Made by a program: the position numbers and the translations under genes | Notes under the pieces: model-generated | Databases searched by the model: none | The model's input: the letters and a program-made list of their open reading frames with translations, nothing else | Told to the model about the DNA's origin: nothing | NCBI GenBank assembly: GCA_030248295.1 | Contig: JASANH010000357.1 | Span: forward strand, 62,001 to 126,000 | Source: Mesodorylaimus sp. YZB2_4 | Lineage: Eukaryota; Nematoda; Enoplea; Dorylaimida; Dorylaimidae | Reading direction: 5' to 3' | Length of the DNA: 64,000 bases | Shown: one piece after another, positions 10,301 to 61,313 of the stretch | How positions within the stretch are numbered: position 1 is the first letter of the stretch | How the letters are laid out: every line of letters begins with the position of its first letter

Positions 10301-11393
10301 GTCCGCATGAGTGACAGGATTCGCCAAACTCGGAAGTTCAGATTCTAATGCACTCAGAAAACTTACATCACGCAAACTTGGCATCCACTCACGAACAGGT
10401 TTTGTAGACGATCCGACAGCTGGTGATGCGACTGACACCGAGCTAAAATACTGCGCAGCATCGTCGTCTCCACCCAAATTGTGAATCGCCTTGAAAGACT
10501 CCAAAAGAAACGGTAATTTTGACAAAGCTGCACGATGTTCGCTGATGGCTTGAGTAGATCGATTGGTTTTACTAAAACGAACGATGTATGATTCTTTTCT
10601 GTCAAACAGTTTCCGAACCGAAAACTTACCCATAAATTCTTCCAAGCAAAGCGTGAACAAAAGGAGCAGTATGCTCGGATTGCTTTTCCGCTAATTTGTC
10701 AGCAGCAAACGAAGCAGCGAAGAAATTTCCTTCCGTAAGCACTTCCTCTGCTTCGGTCAGCCTATAACCAAATAGAAACGTGCAAGAAGAAAGTCGCCGG
10801 AAAGACCCATGTTAGTCGCTTACTTGTTCAGCTGCTCGCAGCATCTAGCGAACAAGAACCTAGTCTCCGCCGTACGCGTACCGAAACTCTTCAGAAATTG
10901 ATACGTAGATGTGAACTGACCACTACGAAAATACGAAGTAGCCAACAAAAATGCGGCATGATCCGTTTTCTCTGAAAAATTGTTCAATTTTTCTAATGGC
11001 ATCCCCATCATTTAAGCACACGTGGAAATTTCTTAGCTCTGGCGGAGCAACTGTCGTAAGGCAGCCCAGTGAAGAAGATAGCAGTACATATATGGGAAGA
11101 ATTATGATAGCTATTTCGAGCTCCGGAAAATGATAAGTAGGCCTAGTTATATGTACAGTATATGTGCCAACCTCCACATACTGTGCCACGGTCAACGGTA
11201 GCATATATGCTGGTGCAGATTCAATTCTTACTTTCAGAGAAATTCAGTTCAGCTAGAACAATGGCATCTTCATATGCGTAGTAATCCCAACAGGAGCGAA
11301 TCAAGTTCTAAAAACCATTTTTCAATTTTGTCACCGAAATAGCTTGCACAGTAAAAGCTTCTGACATACCTCAGTCGCTCCCATAAATGACAT
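7303..11393 (-). CDS. CDC27: APC/C subunit 3, CDC27 (15 exons)
   Basis: TPR scaffold subunit of the anaphase-promoting complex, which binds co-activator tails and substrates for ubiquitination in mitosis. Exons in coding order: 11370-11393, 11232-11307, 10824-10971, 10630-10761, 10367-10571, 10044-10277, 9846-9989, 9546-9792, 9310-9470, 8399-8551, 8259-8339, 8076-8203, 7908-8016, 7625-7828, 7303-7566; phases all fit, giving 769 residues (human is 824). The N-terminal TPRs show LLATSYFRSGQF, the middle is a Ser/Thr/Asn-rich low-complexity linker, and the C-terminal TPR superhelix is highly conserved (GMEYYSTALWHLQKD, YAYTLLGHEY, GLIYYKQEKLGLA, HLALMNFSWA) followed by an acidic tail ending DSDDSS. 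The first exon encodes only 8 residues. The start codon lies 332 bp from the divergent antizyme start. Confidence 0.95.
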
Positions 11394-11725: not shown

Positions 11726-12911
11726 ATGATGGACTCTACAACCAACGATATGACGTAAGTTTTTAAACTACCTAATTCTCGAAAACTAGAACATATGAAT
11801 GGTTTCAGCCTAAGCAAACAGTACTCGATCCACCTCGAGCCAGGACCCACGTACTGCTCCTGATGTGCCCCACGCCGCCAATCTTTACACTTTAACCAAG
11901 TGCACAGAGGGCAGCGGTGTGGGGTTCAAAAAAGAGCCCCCTGTGTTGTCTGAGGCTAGCATCGCGGAGTTAACGGTAAGTGTTTTTATTAATTTTCCCG
12001 CTATAGTACCTACTTCTATTCGTTTTTGGGTGTGGCCATTTTAAGGGTTCTTGTACTCCTGGCCTAGTTTCGAGCTGCCTTGAGGACTGATGTCCTCTGG
12101 GTCACAATTTCTAGATCACTGTAAAAAGAATACATATGGAAGCCATTCCAAGTTTTTTCTAAGCGGTTCTTTATTTCGTCAACTGGGTAAAACTTCCGTA
12201 TTGCGCACGTCTTGATAGGTACTGTAACTCCCCTCCAATGTTCCATTCCACCACCCGTCCGTCCGTTTGTCTGAAAAACCGTCTCTGACGTGTTGTCACG
12301 TTCGGTTTTTAGGATTCTGAACTTGCGCTCGGTGGTGAAATCGGCATCGAGTTCGTATTTGATGTGGCCGATGATTTTGATGTACGTTGGGAAGCCACCA
12401 TGTATCCGGAAGGCCGTTTGTTAGTACACGTTCCGACTGCAGCGTTACCGGAAGGATCGAAAGAAAGGTAAGCGCACGTGTACCCGCACAGTGGCAGGAA
12501 CACCTTCGTTCGTACGTCTTATGTCATCATCGTTCACGGCTTGTCTGACATTTACCAAACTAATGGGTTTTCTCTTTCGCGGGCTAACCTAATAGAGACA
12601 GAGTCCCTTTGCCCCGTTTTTCCATTACCCACGTTTCCGCCCGTAGTTTTTCAAACTTTTTTCAGCTGATTAAACACGACTTCCTGACGCCTAACTGAAC
12701 AGGTTCTTTTTTCAGCTTCGTACGCTTGTTGGAATTTGCGGAGGAAGATCTTGGATGTCGGTCCGTGTACGTTCAGTTCGGCAAGCATCGATCGGATCGG
12801 GCTCACCTCGTGCGCACGTTCATGTATTTCGGTTTCGCGATGCTACCCCCAGATATTACACCACTCCCGACGGATCCGGAAAGTATAACTATGATTTATC
12901 GTATCGATTAG
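11726..12911 (+). CDS. OAZ: Ornithine decarboxylase antizyme, needs +1 ribosomal frameshift (4 exons)
   Basis: Antizyme binds ornithine decarboxylase, blocks its dimerisation, sends it to the proteasome without ubiquitin and limits polyamine uptake. Exons: 11726-11754, 11809-11975, 12313-12467, 12716-12911. ORF1 starts at the first of two adjacent ATGs, preceded in frame by TAA, and codes for 27 residues to TGA at 11861-11863. Reading continues only if the ribosome skips T11861; frame +1 then runs 38 codons to the splice at 11975 and on to TGA/TAG at 12911, about 181 residues in all. The C-terminal antizyme fold is clear: VPTAALPEGSKES, FVRLLEFAEEDLG, HLVRTFMYFGF. The first intron lies between the start codon and the shift site. 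Expression should be autoregulated by polyamines, as in all known antizymes; that is established for the family, not shown here. Confidence 0.95.
11858..11863 (+). promoter_or_regulatory. +1 programmed frameshift site UCC-UGA
   Basis: The context TAC TGC TCC TGA T matches the canonical antizyme shift site, in which the ribosome reads TCC (Ser) and then slips to GAT in the +1 frame. The frame-0 stop is TGA at 11861-11863. Both flanking frames are antizyme coding sequence, so the shift is required rather than optional. Confidence 0.95.
11868..11924 (+). promoter_or_regulatory. Predicted frameshift-stimulating RNA stem
   Basis: Bases 11868-11878 pair with 11914-11924 as an 11-bp stem with ten Watson-Crick pairs and one G-U (11874/11918). 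It begins 4 nt after the frame-0 TGA, the spacing expected of a 3' stimulator. The 35-nt loop contains a second 5-bp hairpin (11888-11892 with 11898-11902). I see the pairing directly; its role is inferred. Confidence 0.65.
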
Positions 12912-50502: not shown

Positions 50503-52207
50503 TTAAGCCTTGGCTCTGGCTCCTCCGTATCCTGGTGACGTGCGAGGCGGTGGGCAATGATCCTAAAAAAGACAAATGCCTCGGCTTTTAGCAACCTATT
50601 GATCAAGTGTGACCACTTACGCAGCTGCCAGGCTTCCCAGGTGGGCCGCGCGGACCTGAAACGAGGGACAACGTTCATATATCCAGTTTGAGCAGCATGG
50701 CGCCGTAATTATACGGTTGCGCCTTGAGCCTTCTTACCCGGTGGCCCTGGTGGGCCGGGCGTTCCATCGCCACCCTTGTCTCCAGGGTCTCCTTGTGGAC
50801 CTGAAACGAGGACAATGTTCGAATCTAGTTTGAACATGGCCTCGAGGATTGCGCCTCGACCCTTACCGGGAGGACCAGCTGGACCAGGTTTTCCATCGCG
50901 GCCGGGCGGACCTGGAGGACCTTGAGGTCCTGGCGGCCCTGGAGGACCGGGTGGCCCTAAAAATCAGAAAAAATGTAACTGAGTATTGAGTCTCACCCTG
51001 GCAAGAGAATGCACTACAAGAACATACCTGGCGGGGCACCATTGAGCACTTTGCCTGGATCGCCGGGCGGTCCCTTATCTCCTGGTTCGCCCGCCTGACC
51101 TTGGGGCCCAGGTGGACCTTGCGGGCCAGGACGTCCTGGCTGACCATCCGTACCAGGGGGACCAGCGTCTCCTTGTGGTCCCGGCAGCCCTGGGGTAAAA
51201 ATGGCATGATATAAATGCTATTTTAGGCAACTGTACATCTTTGGCATTTTTACCTTTTGGCCCAGGTGGGCCAGGTGGACCAGGTGGTCCTGTAAGAATC
51301 GGCTTATGAGTATCAATCGTTTTTCTGGCCAGTGATAAAGCTTACCTGGAGGGCACTAAAACGAATTGTTGTCAGAAGTGGATAAGTAAACATGTATTAG
51401 AAAATTTACTTTTTGACATGGAGGTTTGGGCGGCGGAGCTGGCAGTAAAGTTCCTAAAACGGGCACCAACTACAACCTTTGAAAGAAGACCTTCAATCCG
51501 CACAACTGTTTACCGTCGCGGCCGGGCGGTCCCTAAAATGAGATGACTACTGTCCGCTGGCCTATGTTTAAAATTATCTAATGGCAGAAAATATTAAAGG
51601 GGCCGGTTGACTTACAGGATTTCCAGGTCTTCCAGGCGCCCCAGGCCGGCCATCACGTCCAGGTGGCCCCTAAATAAAGGAAAGAAGTCAGTTAGAACGG
51701 AATCTGAAAGCTCCCCCAATTATATAGGGTCCTTACGGGTGGTCCCGGCGGTCCCTGCTGACATTGACAGCCTTAAAAAAAACCAATTCTAAGAATCGAG
51801 ATTGTTTAAAATGGCTCGTCGTAGTCTTACAGCTTCCTTGGCCAGTTCCAGTTGGGCCACTGTACGGAGCTGGACCTGGTGCAGGAGCAGGTCCTCCGTA
51901 ATTGGCCTGGCGAGCGGAACGGTGTCCAGTGAAGGCTTGTAGCTGGACCATTTCCTTCCACATATCTCGAGAACGAGTCTGAAAGAGATGCCTACAGTAG
52001 TCACTAATCTTTCTTGAGCCCCCGCAATCTCACCTTGCAGAAGTCCACTTCGCTCTGCATAAATGACTGCACGCTTTGCACGTAGTTGTACACCAGTGGT
52101 AGCGTGATAACACATGCTAACACGGCCACTGTGCTGAAAGCCACTGCGCAAAAGGCCACATTACGCAAGGACTTCTTGGGTTTCATAAGATCCTTGTCTT
52201 CACCCAT
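50503..52207 (-). CDS. Cuticle collagen A (about 13 exons)
   Basis: Secreted structural protein of the cuticle. Exon 1 (52034-52207) encodes [16 protein letters not shown] and a hydrophobic signal-anchor ending FCK, the Col_cuticle_N domain. Exon 2 (51831-51978) carries [10 protein letters not shown] and the subtilisin-type processing site HRSAR before a Gly/Pro-rich stretch. A CCQCQQ cluster precedes Gly-X-Y blocks spread over many very short exons, most beginning with a glycine codon or splitting one, including [18 protein letters not shown] and [19 protein letters not shown], with a non-collagen break [17 protein letters not shown]. The last exon ends [19 protein letters not shown], a tail typical of one cuticle collagen subfamily. 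The collagen frame stays open throughout, so this copy looks intact. Exon limits of the short internal exons are approximate. Which C. elegans collagen it matches best cannot be said by eye. Confidence 0.9.
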
Positions 52208-53268: not shown

Positions 53269-55098
53269 CTAGAGTAGGTGGTCCCATAAAAAGCAACCGC
53301 CCACCCTAAACCCTAAAATTTCAACAAAATTTCGATATGGATAAGCACCTGCACAATATGTCGGGCAAATGCCCTTTTCACCAGGCGGACCAGCTGGACC
53401 TGCTGGTCCAGGCTGGCCAGGCTGACCATTATTTCCAGGCTGACCAGGAGAGCCTTTTGGTCCCTTATTTCCAGCAGGGCCTTGTGTTCCATCTTCTCCA
53501 GGTGCTCCAGGAGGACCTAAAGGCGATCTTATCAAGAGGCGCGCCGCAAAGGAACGCCACATTAACAAACTGATCACATACCGGGGGGGCCTGAAAAATA
53601 TGCAGACTGTAAAACAGGGCAATAAAAGTGCTAGCCTATCTCCCGCCCTACCAGGTGGTCCTGCATCGCCAGGATCTCCAGGATCGCCAGGAATAAGTGG
53701 TGACGTTTTCGCATCCTAAAAGGTGCAATAATTTAGTTGATCAGTCATTCGATCTTTCAAGATTTAAAAACTTACCGGTCCGGGATCACCAATTGCTCCA
53801 TCCATGCCAGGAGTCCCCTAAACGCGACAATAAAAGTGTAAATCTCATTGACGCGCCTTAACCATAGTTCATACCGGTAGTCCAGGAGGTCCTGAAATTG
53901 AGAATTCTTATAGCAGTCCTAAACGGCTGCTTGTAGTCTCAGCTCACCAGAGGGTCCTACTCCGCCGTTATCGCCTGATTTCCCGGACGTGCCAGGTTTA
54001 CCCTAAGAGTAGCGACTCACGCGTTATGCTTCCAGTTATGGCAAACTCATTCTTACGGGTGGTCCCTGAAAACAAGCAAGTCAGATGCGAGAACACGTAT
54101 AGCCAACCAGAGCTAGTCTTACATTATCTCCTGCAGGTCCCGGCGGTCCTAAAATGTCGAGATGGTATTCGATCATTTTTAGGCATTATCGAATAAGGAA
54201 GTTTCTTACCAGGCGGCCCAGGCGGCCCTGCTGGGCATTTGGGGCACACTAAAACACAGAAGTTATTGAGTGCAGCATGTCTTACAAGTTAGTTACAGAG
54301 TCATGAGTTCAAGCTAAACTCGCAAGGAAACTAAACTAACTTATTCCAAGCACTCACTTTGAATTAACGTGGCTTCGCAGTACGTTGCTGATCGTCCCAT
54401 CGGTCCCATGGTGCCTGAAGACAAGAGGCTAATTATGATTGTACAATGCCGTCCCTGAATGTCCCAAAGGTCCGATTCGTAAGTCCGGTGCGCGAGATGC
54501 TGGACCTGCTGCACCCATGGAATGCCAACTAACCTGGAGCTCCTGGTGGGCCTAAAATGGAAACAGTGGGTTGCAAAAAATCTCAATTGAACGGAAGCGT
54601 CTCCTCACCGTCGACGCCGTTTAATCCAGGTTTACCAGGGGAGCCAGGTGGCCCTGGTTTGCAGCACCTGTACCGACAACAGATTATTCATAAGCAGACC
54701 ATACCATTAGCAAAATTCTTGAAAAACTTACGGTTGGCAAGGTGCAGGTGTTGGAGGTGGCGGAGGTCCCCCGTAATCCACTTGCCTCGCAGACCTATTA
54801 TAGCTGCCGTGCTGGATTCGTTCATTGACAACGGCACGAAGAGTCGTCACTTCTTCCCAGATGTCTCTGGCGTTGCCCTAATAAAAGTAACATTCTGAGG
54901 ATCACCAGCAATGCGCTATCATCCAGGATGACCAACCTGACAAAAGTCCAGTTCATTCTTCATTTGGGTCTGTACATAGGAGACGTAGTTGTAGACTAGT
55001 GGCAGTGCAATGCAAGTTGCTACAACTGCAACTATACCGAAAGCTACGGAGCTATAGGCAACGACTCGGTAAGCTTTCTCCCGAATATCCCAATCCAT
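53269..55098 (-). CDS. Cuticle collagen B (about 15 exons)
   Basis: Exon 1 (54937-55098, 54 codons) encodes [20 protein letters not shown] and the signal-anchor, ending DFCQ. Exon 2 starts at 54877 with [10 protein letters not shown], carries the processing site SYNRSARQV, and leads to a Pro-rich segment APCQP and CKPGPPG. The Gly-X-Y part is split over many short exons ([43 protein letters not shown]) with a cysteine-bearing break ([20 protein letters not shown]). The C-terminal block ends [11 protein letters not shown], then a short last exon with GFRVGGC. ICPxYCA plus a DGG-like tail is the signature of a large cuticle collagen subfamily; here the tail departs from the usual DGGVFFEDG. It is a close paralogue of collagen C, which it faces head to head. 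Internal exon limits are approximate. Confidence 0.9.
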
Positions 55099-56870: not shown

Positions 56871-59001
56871 ATGGAAGAGGATCTACGAGAGAAGGCTTAT
56901 CGGGTCGTTGCTTACTCGTCCATCGGATTTAGTATCATTTCCGTTTTATCAGTTAGTATAACCCTTCCTATGGTCTATAATTATGTCGAGCACATACAAT
57001 CCCAAATATCAACTGACGTGGGGTTTTGTCGGGTAAGAACGTCTCCTTGACGGAACCGCGGTGCTTGATAATAAGCCCTTCTTGCAGGAATCAGCAACTG
57101 ACATTTGGCAGGGTTTGGAGGAGATTCAGTCCATACAAATTACAGACTCAAATCGGACAGAGAGACAGGCCTATCCTGGCCCAGCTCCAGTCCCCCAACC
57201 TTACGGTCCCCCTCCAACGCAGCTGCCATACGTGCCACCTACGCCGCCTACACCAGCGCCTTGCCAGCCTTGCTGCACACCGGGGCCACCAGGGCCTGCT
57301 GGTCCACCAGGAAAGAATGGAGACAATGTGAGACTTGATCAGCTTGTATGTTGCATTAGGCTAACAAAAGATTTTTAGGGTAAACCAGGATCGGCTGGAC
57401 TGCCAGGCATGCCAGGTAAGCCAATCATGACTCATCCGCAACTAATGCAGGCCCCGCAAGCATTGCGCTAGAAACAGTTTATGCCAACATCTCACGTGTA
57501 CTGCCCAAATTTTAGTGACAGTTCTACCTGCTGACCCAGTTTACGTTTCCCATTTTAGGAATGTCCCCAATGAGACCGTAAGTACTGACGACCTTTCCTT
57601 ATCTTACCATCTCTTGCACAATCTCACACATCTTCTTATTTTTCAGATGCATCGAGGTATGTTCTGTGGCAGGTTCACTTATTGTGCTGTTGACTTACTG
57701 TGAATTCGCTTGCATCCCCTCTTATAAGCATCGGGTTGAACCCCTTTGAAATCCCTGCTCTTGCCCCCCCCTTCCCCCCTCCCCTCCCACCTGCTATAAG
57801 AAATACATATGGCTACCTGTCATAAAATAGGTACGTTTGGGTCGCCACTGTTTTATTTTGTTTTCATAATTTACCCTTCCCCAACCATTCAAATCCCCTT
57901 CCTAAAGCCCTGCTGGCGATGAGAGAAGCCAACCTTGGCCCAAATCCGGTTGATGATAAAGAGATGGGTGGGAAGGGGAAGGGATCATTTTTATGGCTAC
58001 CACCATAATGGCCTTAATACTAGAATGGAGGCCTAAAAATATATACTTTGAGCAGGAGAGCCGGGCCCCTTTTTAATCCGATCGCCTCCAGTATAACGAG
58101 GTACGTACCCGAACGTGCCCCGATTTTCTGTGCTTTTTAAGGCAACAGCCCCTCCATGCAAACCATGCCCGGCCGGGCCACCCGGACCACCTGGTCCTGC
58201 TGGAACTGAAGGTTCACTATTGCCTTGGTTCAGACTAAGTAGCACAAAATTGACGACGACTTGTTCATTATAGGTGACCCAGGTCCTATGGGACCATCGG
58301 GCAACCCAGGAAACAACGGAAAAAATGGAGATCCTGGACCGCGGGGTCCACCAGGTAAGTCAGTAGAATAATGTGCGATAGAAAAGACTATTTTCAAAGT
58401 TTATCTCCCAGGTCCACCTGGTCCCGCTGGCAGTGATGGTCCTACTGGAGATGCTGGTTCACCTGCCAATGCGTCACCCTTGGTATGCCACATTACTTGA
58501 TGCCCTCTCTCATAGTTTACAGCTTGTGCTTTCAGATTCCTGGAGACCCTGGGGATCCTGGCGATGCTGGACCACCTGGCCCAGCAGGTATCAAGATTCT
58601 CTGGAGGTATACTAGTTTGAATGTGTAAACATCTCTTGACTTCCTCAAGGTCCTGCTGGCAATCCTGGAGAAGATGGTCAGGCAGGCCCGCCAGGTAACA
58701 AAGGTCCGAACGGTCAACCTGGTCAACCCGGAAAGAACGGTCAAGGCGGTGCCCCGGGTCAACCTGGTACGTTCAATAGCATCCTTCCTCACTTTCACCC
58801 GAACTAACTTTGTTCTATATTTAGGAGGAGCAGGCCCGCCTGGTGAAAAAGGCATTTGTCCGACTTATTGTTCAGCCGTAAGCTTAAAATTTTTTAAACA
58901 GCATAGATGATTGGTATTTATTGTAATTTTAGGACGGCGGTATCTTTTTCGTCGAAGGAGCGGGTGGCAACAAGCGCGCCCCGGGCGTCAAGAAGGCATA
59001 A
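56871..59001 (+). CDS. Cuticle collagen C (12 exons)
   Basis: Exons: 56871-57032, 57088-57327, 57379-57415, 57559-57577, 57647-57656, 58142-58211, 58274-58354, 58412-58482, 58536-58587, 58650-58766, 58825-58877, 58933-59001; phases agree throughout. Exon 1 encodes [20 protein letters not shown] and a hydrophobic signal-anchor (54 codons, as in collagen B). Exon 2 has ATDIWQGLEEIQ, the RxxR-type site NRTERQ, a Pro/Tyr-rich spacer and [20 protein letters not shown]. After two very small exons (19 and 10 nt) carrying a lone cysteine, the main Gly-X-Y part runs to [12 protein letters not shown], and the final exon DGGIFFVEGAGGNKRAPG is the standard subfamily tail. The intron 57657-58141 is 485 nt, pyrimidine-rich, and contains a dispersed repeat copy at 57904-57957. 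Secreted cuticle component; stage of expression unknown. Confidence 0.93.
57904..57957. repeat. Dispersed repeat, type 2 copy in a collagen C intron
   Basis: Begins AAAGCCCTGCTGGCGATGAG and ends near CAAATCCGGTTGATGATA; about 80% identical by eye to 61364-61411. Confidence 0.7.
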
Positions 59002-60009: not shown

Positions 60010-61313
60010 TTAGGTATTCTAAAAAAGTGACATTGGACAGACTTCAAGTTGGGTAGTAGGGTCACGACTGAAGGACTTTCGTCCGTGTAGACGTCACTCG
60101 GAGTGATGTCTACACGGACGAAAGTCCTTCCGACACGTTGAGTGGGCCTCCAAACAGGTAGAAGACAGAACTGGAGAGTACCTCTTGCTGGATTCCTACA
60201 AGGCAGACTCCAACTGGAAGCAACAGTGCTCACCATCTCGCGCGGCGACTGGTTGTTGTTATCATCCGTATCCTCCTCGGACACGCCGGCGTCATCCCGC
60301 TTGCCTTTTTCATCCGCTGTAATCACACGCACGCGCTGATTAACCTTTCTCCAATCACGCCATGCTTGAAAGTGATATCGAAGGGAGACCTAAAAGTGGC
60401 CTAGGTAAGTGGCTCACTGCAGATTGGAGCAAAGAATGAAAGCCAGCCCACCGACAGCCACACGAAATAGGTGACCATAAGGAATATGGCCAAACTGATC
60501 AGACCGGGCATGGCGATAGCATCGTTCCCAGTGTGCGCCACAGCCACGGCACCGGCTACACACAACCAACAACTGGCGAAAGCCATCGGAGTCAAGATAC
60601 ATAGGCACAGCAGATCGGCGAGCATGTTGCGACGAACCGATCGATTGCCAGAACTTGTCATAAACTAAAAATCGAGGGCGATAATTTTCCGTCCACCCAA
60701 GCTGTTTCTGCCTGTCTTACCTCGGTCCACGGTCTCGGATATCGCACAGTCAAGTACTGAAACTTGCATATTTCGCATTTATCCGTATTCGAAGTGGAAA
60801 GCCACGTTTCCAGGCAAGTGCGATGGTAGAGGCCCATCGAGCCACTGCAATGGCACGAAGAAATCAATGGTTCACCGTGATTGAACGGACATGATATTTC
60901 GCCCCCGTGACAAATACGGCATACAGCGGGCGACAGAACGTCACTGAAAACTTGAGCATGACCAATGCAGGAAACAAACGATCAATTAGCAAAGTCTTGC
61001 CTGAAATGCACGTGACGTTGCGCCTTGACAGCCTTCGGTGGTGTGTCGGTCATTTTGATTTCCACCATCCCATCCATATTGCTCTCAAATCTGACATTTT
61101 CGTGCTTCGTCTGTGATACCGAAACGAAATTCGCTTGAACGCTACTTGTCGAGATTTCCTAAAAAGATGGGCTAGGTGCAAAGGAGAGAAAGCAAGGCCC
61201 TGGATGCCACTCACAGGACGTAATCGATTCAACCCATTTGATTGCAATTGAGGAACAGAAGTCGATTTGGCAATGGTCGACGGTAACATATTCAATGGCG
61301 ATTCGCGAGACAT
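60010..61313 (-). CDS. MARCHF: Membrane-associated RING-CH (MARCH2/3-like) E3 ubiquitin ligase (6 exons)
   Basis: Two-pass membrane E3 ligase of the MARCH2/3/11 type, acting on membrane proteins in endosomes. Exons: 61215-61313, 61001-61158, 60721-60943, 60452-60664, 60234-60389, 60010-60018, 285 residues in phase. The RING-CH domain shows VCRICHGGE, the acidic/loop insert, LISSCHCSGSMGLYHRTCLE, WLSTSNTDKCEICKFQY and PRPWTE, with the C4HC3 ligand order of the family. Two hydrophobic segments follow (around LADLLCLCILTPMAFASCWL and LISLAIFLMVTYFVWLSV), then the conserved RYHFQAWRDWRKVNQRVRV and an acidic tail. Intron 2 is GC-AG. The last exon has only two sense codons plus stop; if the last intron is kept, the frame stays open for about 100 more codons to 59934, through a long palindrome. 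The N-terminal 33 residues (exon 1) are tentative. Confidence 0.9.
60070..60130. repeat. 61-nt near-perfect palindrome in the last MARCH intron
   Basis: Arms 60070-60099 and 60101-60130 are reverse complements with a single mismatch (60093/60107, G-U in RNA) and a one-base centre at 60100. It would fold into a 30-bp hairpin in transcripts of either strand. Confidence 0.92.
60944..61000 (-). other. GC-AG intron
   Basis: The exon ends ...TTTCAG and the intron begins GCAAGA; the acceptor is TTTTCAG. Only this donor is in the phase (2) that restores the RING-CH frame. The two nearby GT sites give a stop codon or the wrong frame. Intron length is 57 nt. Confidence 0.75.

Follow-up and report, generated by a model that had tools for sequence, protein, structure and literature searches.

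The antizyme gene and its paralogue

The window, by which we mean the whole 64-kb stretch of DNA that was analysed, comes from contig C179, in a genome assembled as 145 Mb and 1067 contigs. On its + strand, at positions 11726-12911, lies a four-exon ornithine decarboxylase (ODC) antizyme gene, the exons of which were placed by hand on the evidence of splice signals, open frames and a paralogue, and are predictions from sequence alone. The paralogue, on contig C21 (locus L001; G000:C21:394206-397355), shares both the four-exon plan and the shift site TCC TGA T, and these two loci are the only antizyme loci recovered from the genome by a search with the ODC_AZ domain and by a DNA search. The coding exons are:

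11726..11754, + strand: coding exon 1, with the start of ORF1 (ATG at 11726); hand-built gene model
11809..11975, + strand: exon 2, with the end of ORF1, the shift site, the 3' element and the start of ORF2; sequence reading and gene model
12313..12467, + strand: exon 3, ORF2; gene model
12716..12911, + strand: exon 4, ORF2 with its stop codon, and an exon-level match to ODC_AZ at 12714-12863; domain search and gene model
L001 819-844, 901-1073, 1261-1418 and 1503-1698: antizyme exons of the paralogue; gene model

ORF1 comprises 27 codons, ending in TAC TGC TCC TGA, and a +1 shift at TCC gives a predicted product of 181 residues. This shifted product matches Pfam ODC_AZ with an E-value of 4.4e-16 and that of the paralogue with one of 9.3e-17 (59.2 and 61.4 bits, respectively, against a cut-off of 24.2); the product also matches solved antizyme chains, with a best E-value of 7.1e-19. 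Both copies display the antizyme layout, namely a short ORF1 closing at UCC UGA followed by an ORF2 in the +1 frame, and PMC5009743 gives UCC_UGA as the majority shift site of antizymes. The two proteins are identical at 121 of 179 aligned residues. In contrast to the two genes of this genome, C. elegans has a single antizyme gene according to the same source (PMC5009743, section 17). As for the genomic neighbourhood, an ORF that matches ANAPC3 (anaphase-promoting complex subunit 3; 10820-11011, - strand, E 1.2e-11) adjoins the gene in the window, and its place upstream of the paralogue is taken by a RING-finger exon (L001 1-150).

The cuticle collagen domain, which we take to be a nematode marker, has 133 matches genome-wide, and we read the genome as that of a nematode on this assumption. 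Matches to the N-terminal domain of cuticle collagens also occur in the window itself, at 52025-52153 (-), 54937-55056 (-) and 56913-57041 (+). A search of the genome for the SL1 pattern with up to two mismatches returned no match, and neither did a search for the SL1 family in which 50 of 31302 candidates were scored, which does not imply that SL1 is absent, and a tRNA scan of the 64-kb window returned none. ODC-type decarboxylase exons are found on contigs C142 and C185, the former stretch being presumably ODC by its motif; hence, the target of the antizyme is likely present in the same genome. The C-terminal half of a separate intronless open frame of 867 residues (L007 1069-3672, - strand, contig C108) contains a domain of the ornithine/arginine decarboxylase type, and the N-terminal half is without a Pfam match. 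The frame was possibly acquired from another organism, and contig C108 also bears cuticle collagen matches.

The shift site and the stem that follows it

The first part of the 3' element can be read directly from the sequence:

11858..11864, + strand: +1 shift site TCC TGA T; read directly, the same in the paralogue
11868..11878, + strand: stem 1, 5' arm CCCCACGCCGC; read directly, kept in the paralogue
11914..11924, + strand: stem 1, 3' arm GCGGTGTGGGG; read directly, kept in the paralogue

The codon TCC (11858-11860) and the stop codon TGA (11861-11863) are followed by a 4-nt spacer, TGTG (11864-11867), and then by stem 1, an 11-bp helix of 10 Watson-Crick pairs and one G.U that encloses a loop of 35 nt (11879-11913). 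The original prediction had placed the shift site, the spacer, this stem and loop, and a 5-bp hairpin within the loop, and direct reading finds every one of its coordinates correct. The segment 11868-11924 folds at -29.7 kcal/mol, a value equalled by none of 200 dinucleotide shuffles (1/200 for the paralogue). When a 95-nt stretch was redrawn with synonymous codons, a comparably strong stem starting within its first 10 nt arose in 16 of 20000 redraws, the observed stem being counted here with an imperfect extension to 11864. The outer stem thus exceeds chance. The extension in question, between 11864-11867 and 11925-11928, is available in both copies with different bases; since it reaches the UGA, it is ruled out for as long as the UGA occupies the A site. 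A match to the Rfam mir-205 family, at 21.9 bits against a gathering score of 55, was taken as a chance hit arising from stem 1.

A predicted second stem interlocked with the first

A pairing search revealed that most of the 3' end of the loop is complementary to a stretch shortly downstream of stem 1, and this completes the element:

11879..11902, + strand: loop 1 (24 nt; paralogue, 30 nt)
11903..11912, + strand: stem 2, 5' arm CACAGAGGGC; pairing search, kept in the paralogue
11913, + strand: junction of 1 nt (A) linking stem 2 (5' arm) to stem 1 (3' arm)
11925..11935, + strand: loop 3, A-rich, 11 nt (8 nt in the paralogue)
11936..11945, + strand: stem 2, 3' arm GCCCCCTGTG; pairing search, kept in the paralogue

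Stem 2 runs C-G, A-U, C-G, A-U, G-C, A.C, G-C, G-C, G-C, C-G, that is, nine pairs and a single A.C mismatch (11908 with 11941), which is found in both copies. As complementary sequence, stems 1 and 2 are interlocked in the topology of an H-type pseudoknot, and the same two stems recur in the second copy. Further, a search for the strongest interlocked pair of stems in the stretch returned precisely stem 1 and stem 2, together with weak extensions of both.

The pairing is rare among sequences with the same coding content. For the window copy, 20000 versions with synonymously redrawn codons never reached the observed pseudoknot score, and three other codon weights let it be reached 0, 0 and 5 times in as many versions; in the paralogue, two codon weights gave 1 and 80 of 20000, with the higher counts arising under strong G/C bias at third positions. 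With stem 1 held fixed, the score was reached in 22 of 10000 redraws (window copy only), and with the stem-1 codons fixed and the rest redrawn synonymously, a downstream pairing as good appeared in 21 of 5000 redraws for the window copy and 13 of 5000 for the paralogue. When both strands of the 64 kb were scanned in 11620 segments of 95 nt at a step of 11, three scored as high: the antizyme site itself and two mutually overlapping segments on the minus strand at about 60128-60139. These two span the palindrome 60070-60130, whose 30-nt arms are 97% complementary and separated by 1 nt; apart from it and the antizyme site, nowhere in the window is the score as high.

We therefore propose, with a probability of about 0.82, that this nematode antizyme gene carries an H-type pseudoknot as the 3' element of its +1 frameshift cassette. 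We infer that the RNA folds in this manner, that the fold stimulates shifting and that polyamines control the process.

Constraint on the arms in the two copies

Comparison of the paralogues shows a marked difference between the helical and the single-stranded parts of the element. All four stem arms are identical letter for letter in the two copies, whereas the two long loops have diverged in both sequence and length; in alignment A3, stem 1 keeps 11/11 pairs and stem 2 has 9/10 positions paired. No pair of either stem varies between the two sequences compared (n=2), and compensatory changes are absent for the simple reason that the arms do not vary. The identity of the arms could also stem from the encoded peptide or from recent gene conversion.

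The synonymous positions speak to the former of these. In codons of shared residues, fourfold sites are identical at 10/10 positions in the arms versus 19/45 elsewhere (P 7e-4), and degenerate codons are identical in 15/15 cases versus 56/102 (P 3e-4), the counts of 10/10 and 15/15 resting on one hand-placed gap that aligns EPPV with EPPV. With the gaps of a MAFFT protein alignment, which splits EPPV, the corresponding figures become 7/9 versus 19/45 (P 0.056) for fourfold sites and 11/13 versus 56/102 (P 0.036) for degenerate codons. MAFFT misplaces the gap when run on the whole exon, and aligns EPPV when run on the DNA stretch ending with stem 2.

Alternative readings of the 3' element

The original prediction had regarded the loop of stem 1 as the site of a nested fold and had suggested that such a branched hairpin, if real, would be a stimulator built otherwise than the pseudoknot of vertebrate antizymes. 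The feature at its centre is:

11888..11902, + strand: nested 5-bp hairpin (CACTT 11888-11892 / AAGTG 11898-11902); at chance level, 3/5 pairs kept in the paralogue

In its more general form, this alternative holds that stem 1, an inner helix and an apical hairpin together stimulate shifting, and that the pairing with 11936-11945 is incidental. Computed energies lean towards it, with the nested folds at -34.7 (window) and -35.7 kcal/mol (paralogue) and the pseudoknot at about -28.6 and -28.0, respectively, so that by this simple sum the pseudoknot is not the more stable of the two in either copy. The pseudoknot values, however, come from a rough Dirks-Pierce-style sum with coaxial stacking left out, which is too crude to decide the matter, and it is consequently the pattern of constraint that carries the argument for the pseudoknot. 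It can be further said for the branched hairpin that only 109 of 20000 synonymous redraws of the 95-nt stretch attain a nested fold as good overall, a quality owed mostly to stem 1, which is common to both models, and that an inner helix, UCUUU/AGAGG, can form in both copies.

Nevertheless, the constraint falls elsewhere. Of 200 shuffles, 47 fold as well as the isolated loop (43 of 200 for the loop of the paralogue), and with stem 1 fixed the fold inside the loop is equalled in 2300 of 5000 synonymous redraws (1613 of 5000 for the paralogue), against the 21 and 13 of 5000 found for the downstream pairing. The loop-internal fold, including the inner hairpin, is thus at chance level in both copies, and the named hairpin loses two of its five pairs in the paralogue. 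Moreover, 11936-11945, just beyond the coordinates originally considered, plays no part in the nested fold and yet is identical in both copies as the pseudoknot partner of the loop. Hence, while the antizyme +1 site with a strong 3' stem stands, being backed by the matches to ODC_AZ and to the solved chains, we set the branched hairpin aside as an unlikely architecture, given that the loop folds no better than chance and that the named hairpin is not kept.

A second possibility, which we consider improbable, would retain both structures as alternating states. Because the UCUUU/AGAGG helix shares bases, on its 3' side, with the 5' arm of stem 2, a nested fold made of stem 1 and this helix would be mutually exclusive with the pseudoknot, the balance between them being tipped by polyamines or by the ribosome. 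Such a switch, if real, would make the 3' element itself a part of polyamine sensing in both gene copies.

Finally, it is very improbable that there is no functional 3' structure, with the likeness of the arms due to peptide and codon bias and shifting due to UCC UGA and the 5' sequence: with the gap placed by hand, the two copies indeed encode the same residues in the arms, the comparison comprises only two sequences, and strong third-position G/C bias makes the score less rare (the 80 of 20000 of the paralogue), but redraws that preserve the peptide still rarely or never reach the score of the window copy (0/20000, and 0, 0 and 5 with other weights) and the fourfold sites in the arms are identical throughout (10/10).

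Relationship to known antizyme pseudoknots

The H-type pseudoknot favoured here has thematic counterparts in other animals. The invertebrate antizyme pseudoknot, known from oyster and aphid, follows the +1 site and is distinct from the mammalian one (PMC5009743), and the legend to Figure 14 of that article describes its stems as conserved and its single-stranded parts as varying. The oyster pseudoknot has been tested in mammalian cells, as stated in PMC4505036, which cites Ivanov et al. 2004 (J Mol Biol 339:495) as the source for the invertebrate pseudoknot. The nematode element resembles these in having a +1 site followed by a putative pseudoknot with constant stems and varying loops, a likeness of general description.

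The Rfam model RF00381 (Antizyme_FSE), which represents the vertebrate antizyme pseudoknot, does not match the nematode element, either in 11840-11960 at E-values up to 10 or in L001 at E-values up to 1, and a further Rfam search gave only an unrelated match of 20.5 bits against a cut-off of 40. However, the consensus of RF00381, for which the figures below are our own reading of the printed version with two positions hidden, has the same H-type topology: its loop ends in a stretch complementary to one that lies 3' of stem 1. As so read, it starts 2 nt after the UGA (4 nt in the nematode element), with a stem 1 of 12 pairs including one mismatch (11 pairs in the nematode), a loop 1 of about 6 nt (24 or 30 nt), a stem 2 of about 6 positions (10 positions) and a loop 3 of about 9 nt (11 or 8 nt). 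In the +1 frame after the UGA, the consensus encodes D-A-P-H and the nematode sequence D-V-P-H.

With regard to the shortest of these loops, the coronavirus-type -1 frameshift pseudoknot has an 8-nt loop that spans an 11-bp stem 1. A loop 3 of 8 nt across an 11-bp stem 1, as in the nematode paralogue, is hence feasible; the direction of the shift and the shift site are different in the coronavirus type, and no homology is implied. Thus, the nematode element is probably a further case, perhaps a variant, of the known animal antizyme pseudoknot. Among the titles and abstracts searched, none concerns a nematode antizyme pseudoknot, though the likeliest papers lie outside that coverage. In a viral contig collection, a protein scan gave 16 pattern matches, none confirmed, and a DNA pattern scan gave none; in a collection of genome contigs from organisms other than nematodes, a protein-alignment scan gave 35 pattern matches, again with none confirmed.

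A proposed mechanism and its implications

By analogy with the antizymes that have been studied, the cassette may be envisaged as operating in the following manner. A ribosome completing the 27-codon ORF1 would have UCC in its P site and UGA in its A site, and would meet the pseudoknot at +11 from the first base of UCC, where stem 1 starts. This distance corresponds approximately to the mRNA entry of the ribosome. With termination at UGA proceeding slowly, the knot would delay the ribosome, and some ribosomes would slip by one base to GAU and go on to make the 181-residue antizyme. High polyamine levels would raise the shifted fraction, and the product would in turn curb ODC and polyamine uptake. 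Polyamine control, the targeting of ODC and the control of uptake are all known from the antizyme system, as set out in PMC5009743 (section 17); at the nematode gene, frameshifting and its response to polyamines are inferred from that likeness.

Taken as a pseudoknot, the element amends the earlier suggestion that a novel frameshift architecture is present here and would add a nematode case to the animal antizyme pseudoknots. The pair of paralogues, with their identical arms and drifted loops, offers a natural starting point for tests of the stems. More generally, the presence of two antizyme genes in one nematode raises the question of whether each copy may respond to a different level of polyamines.
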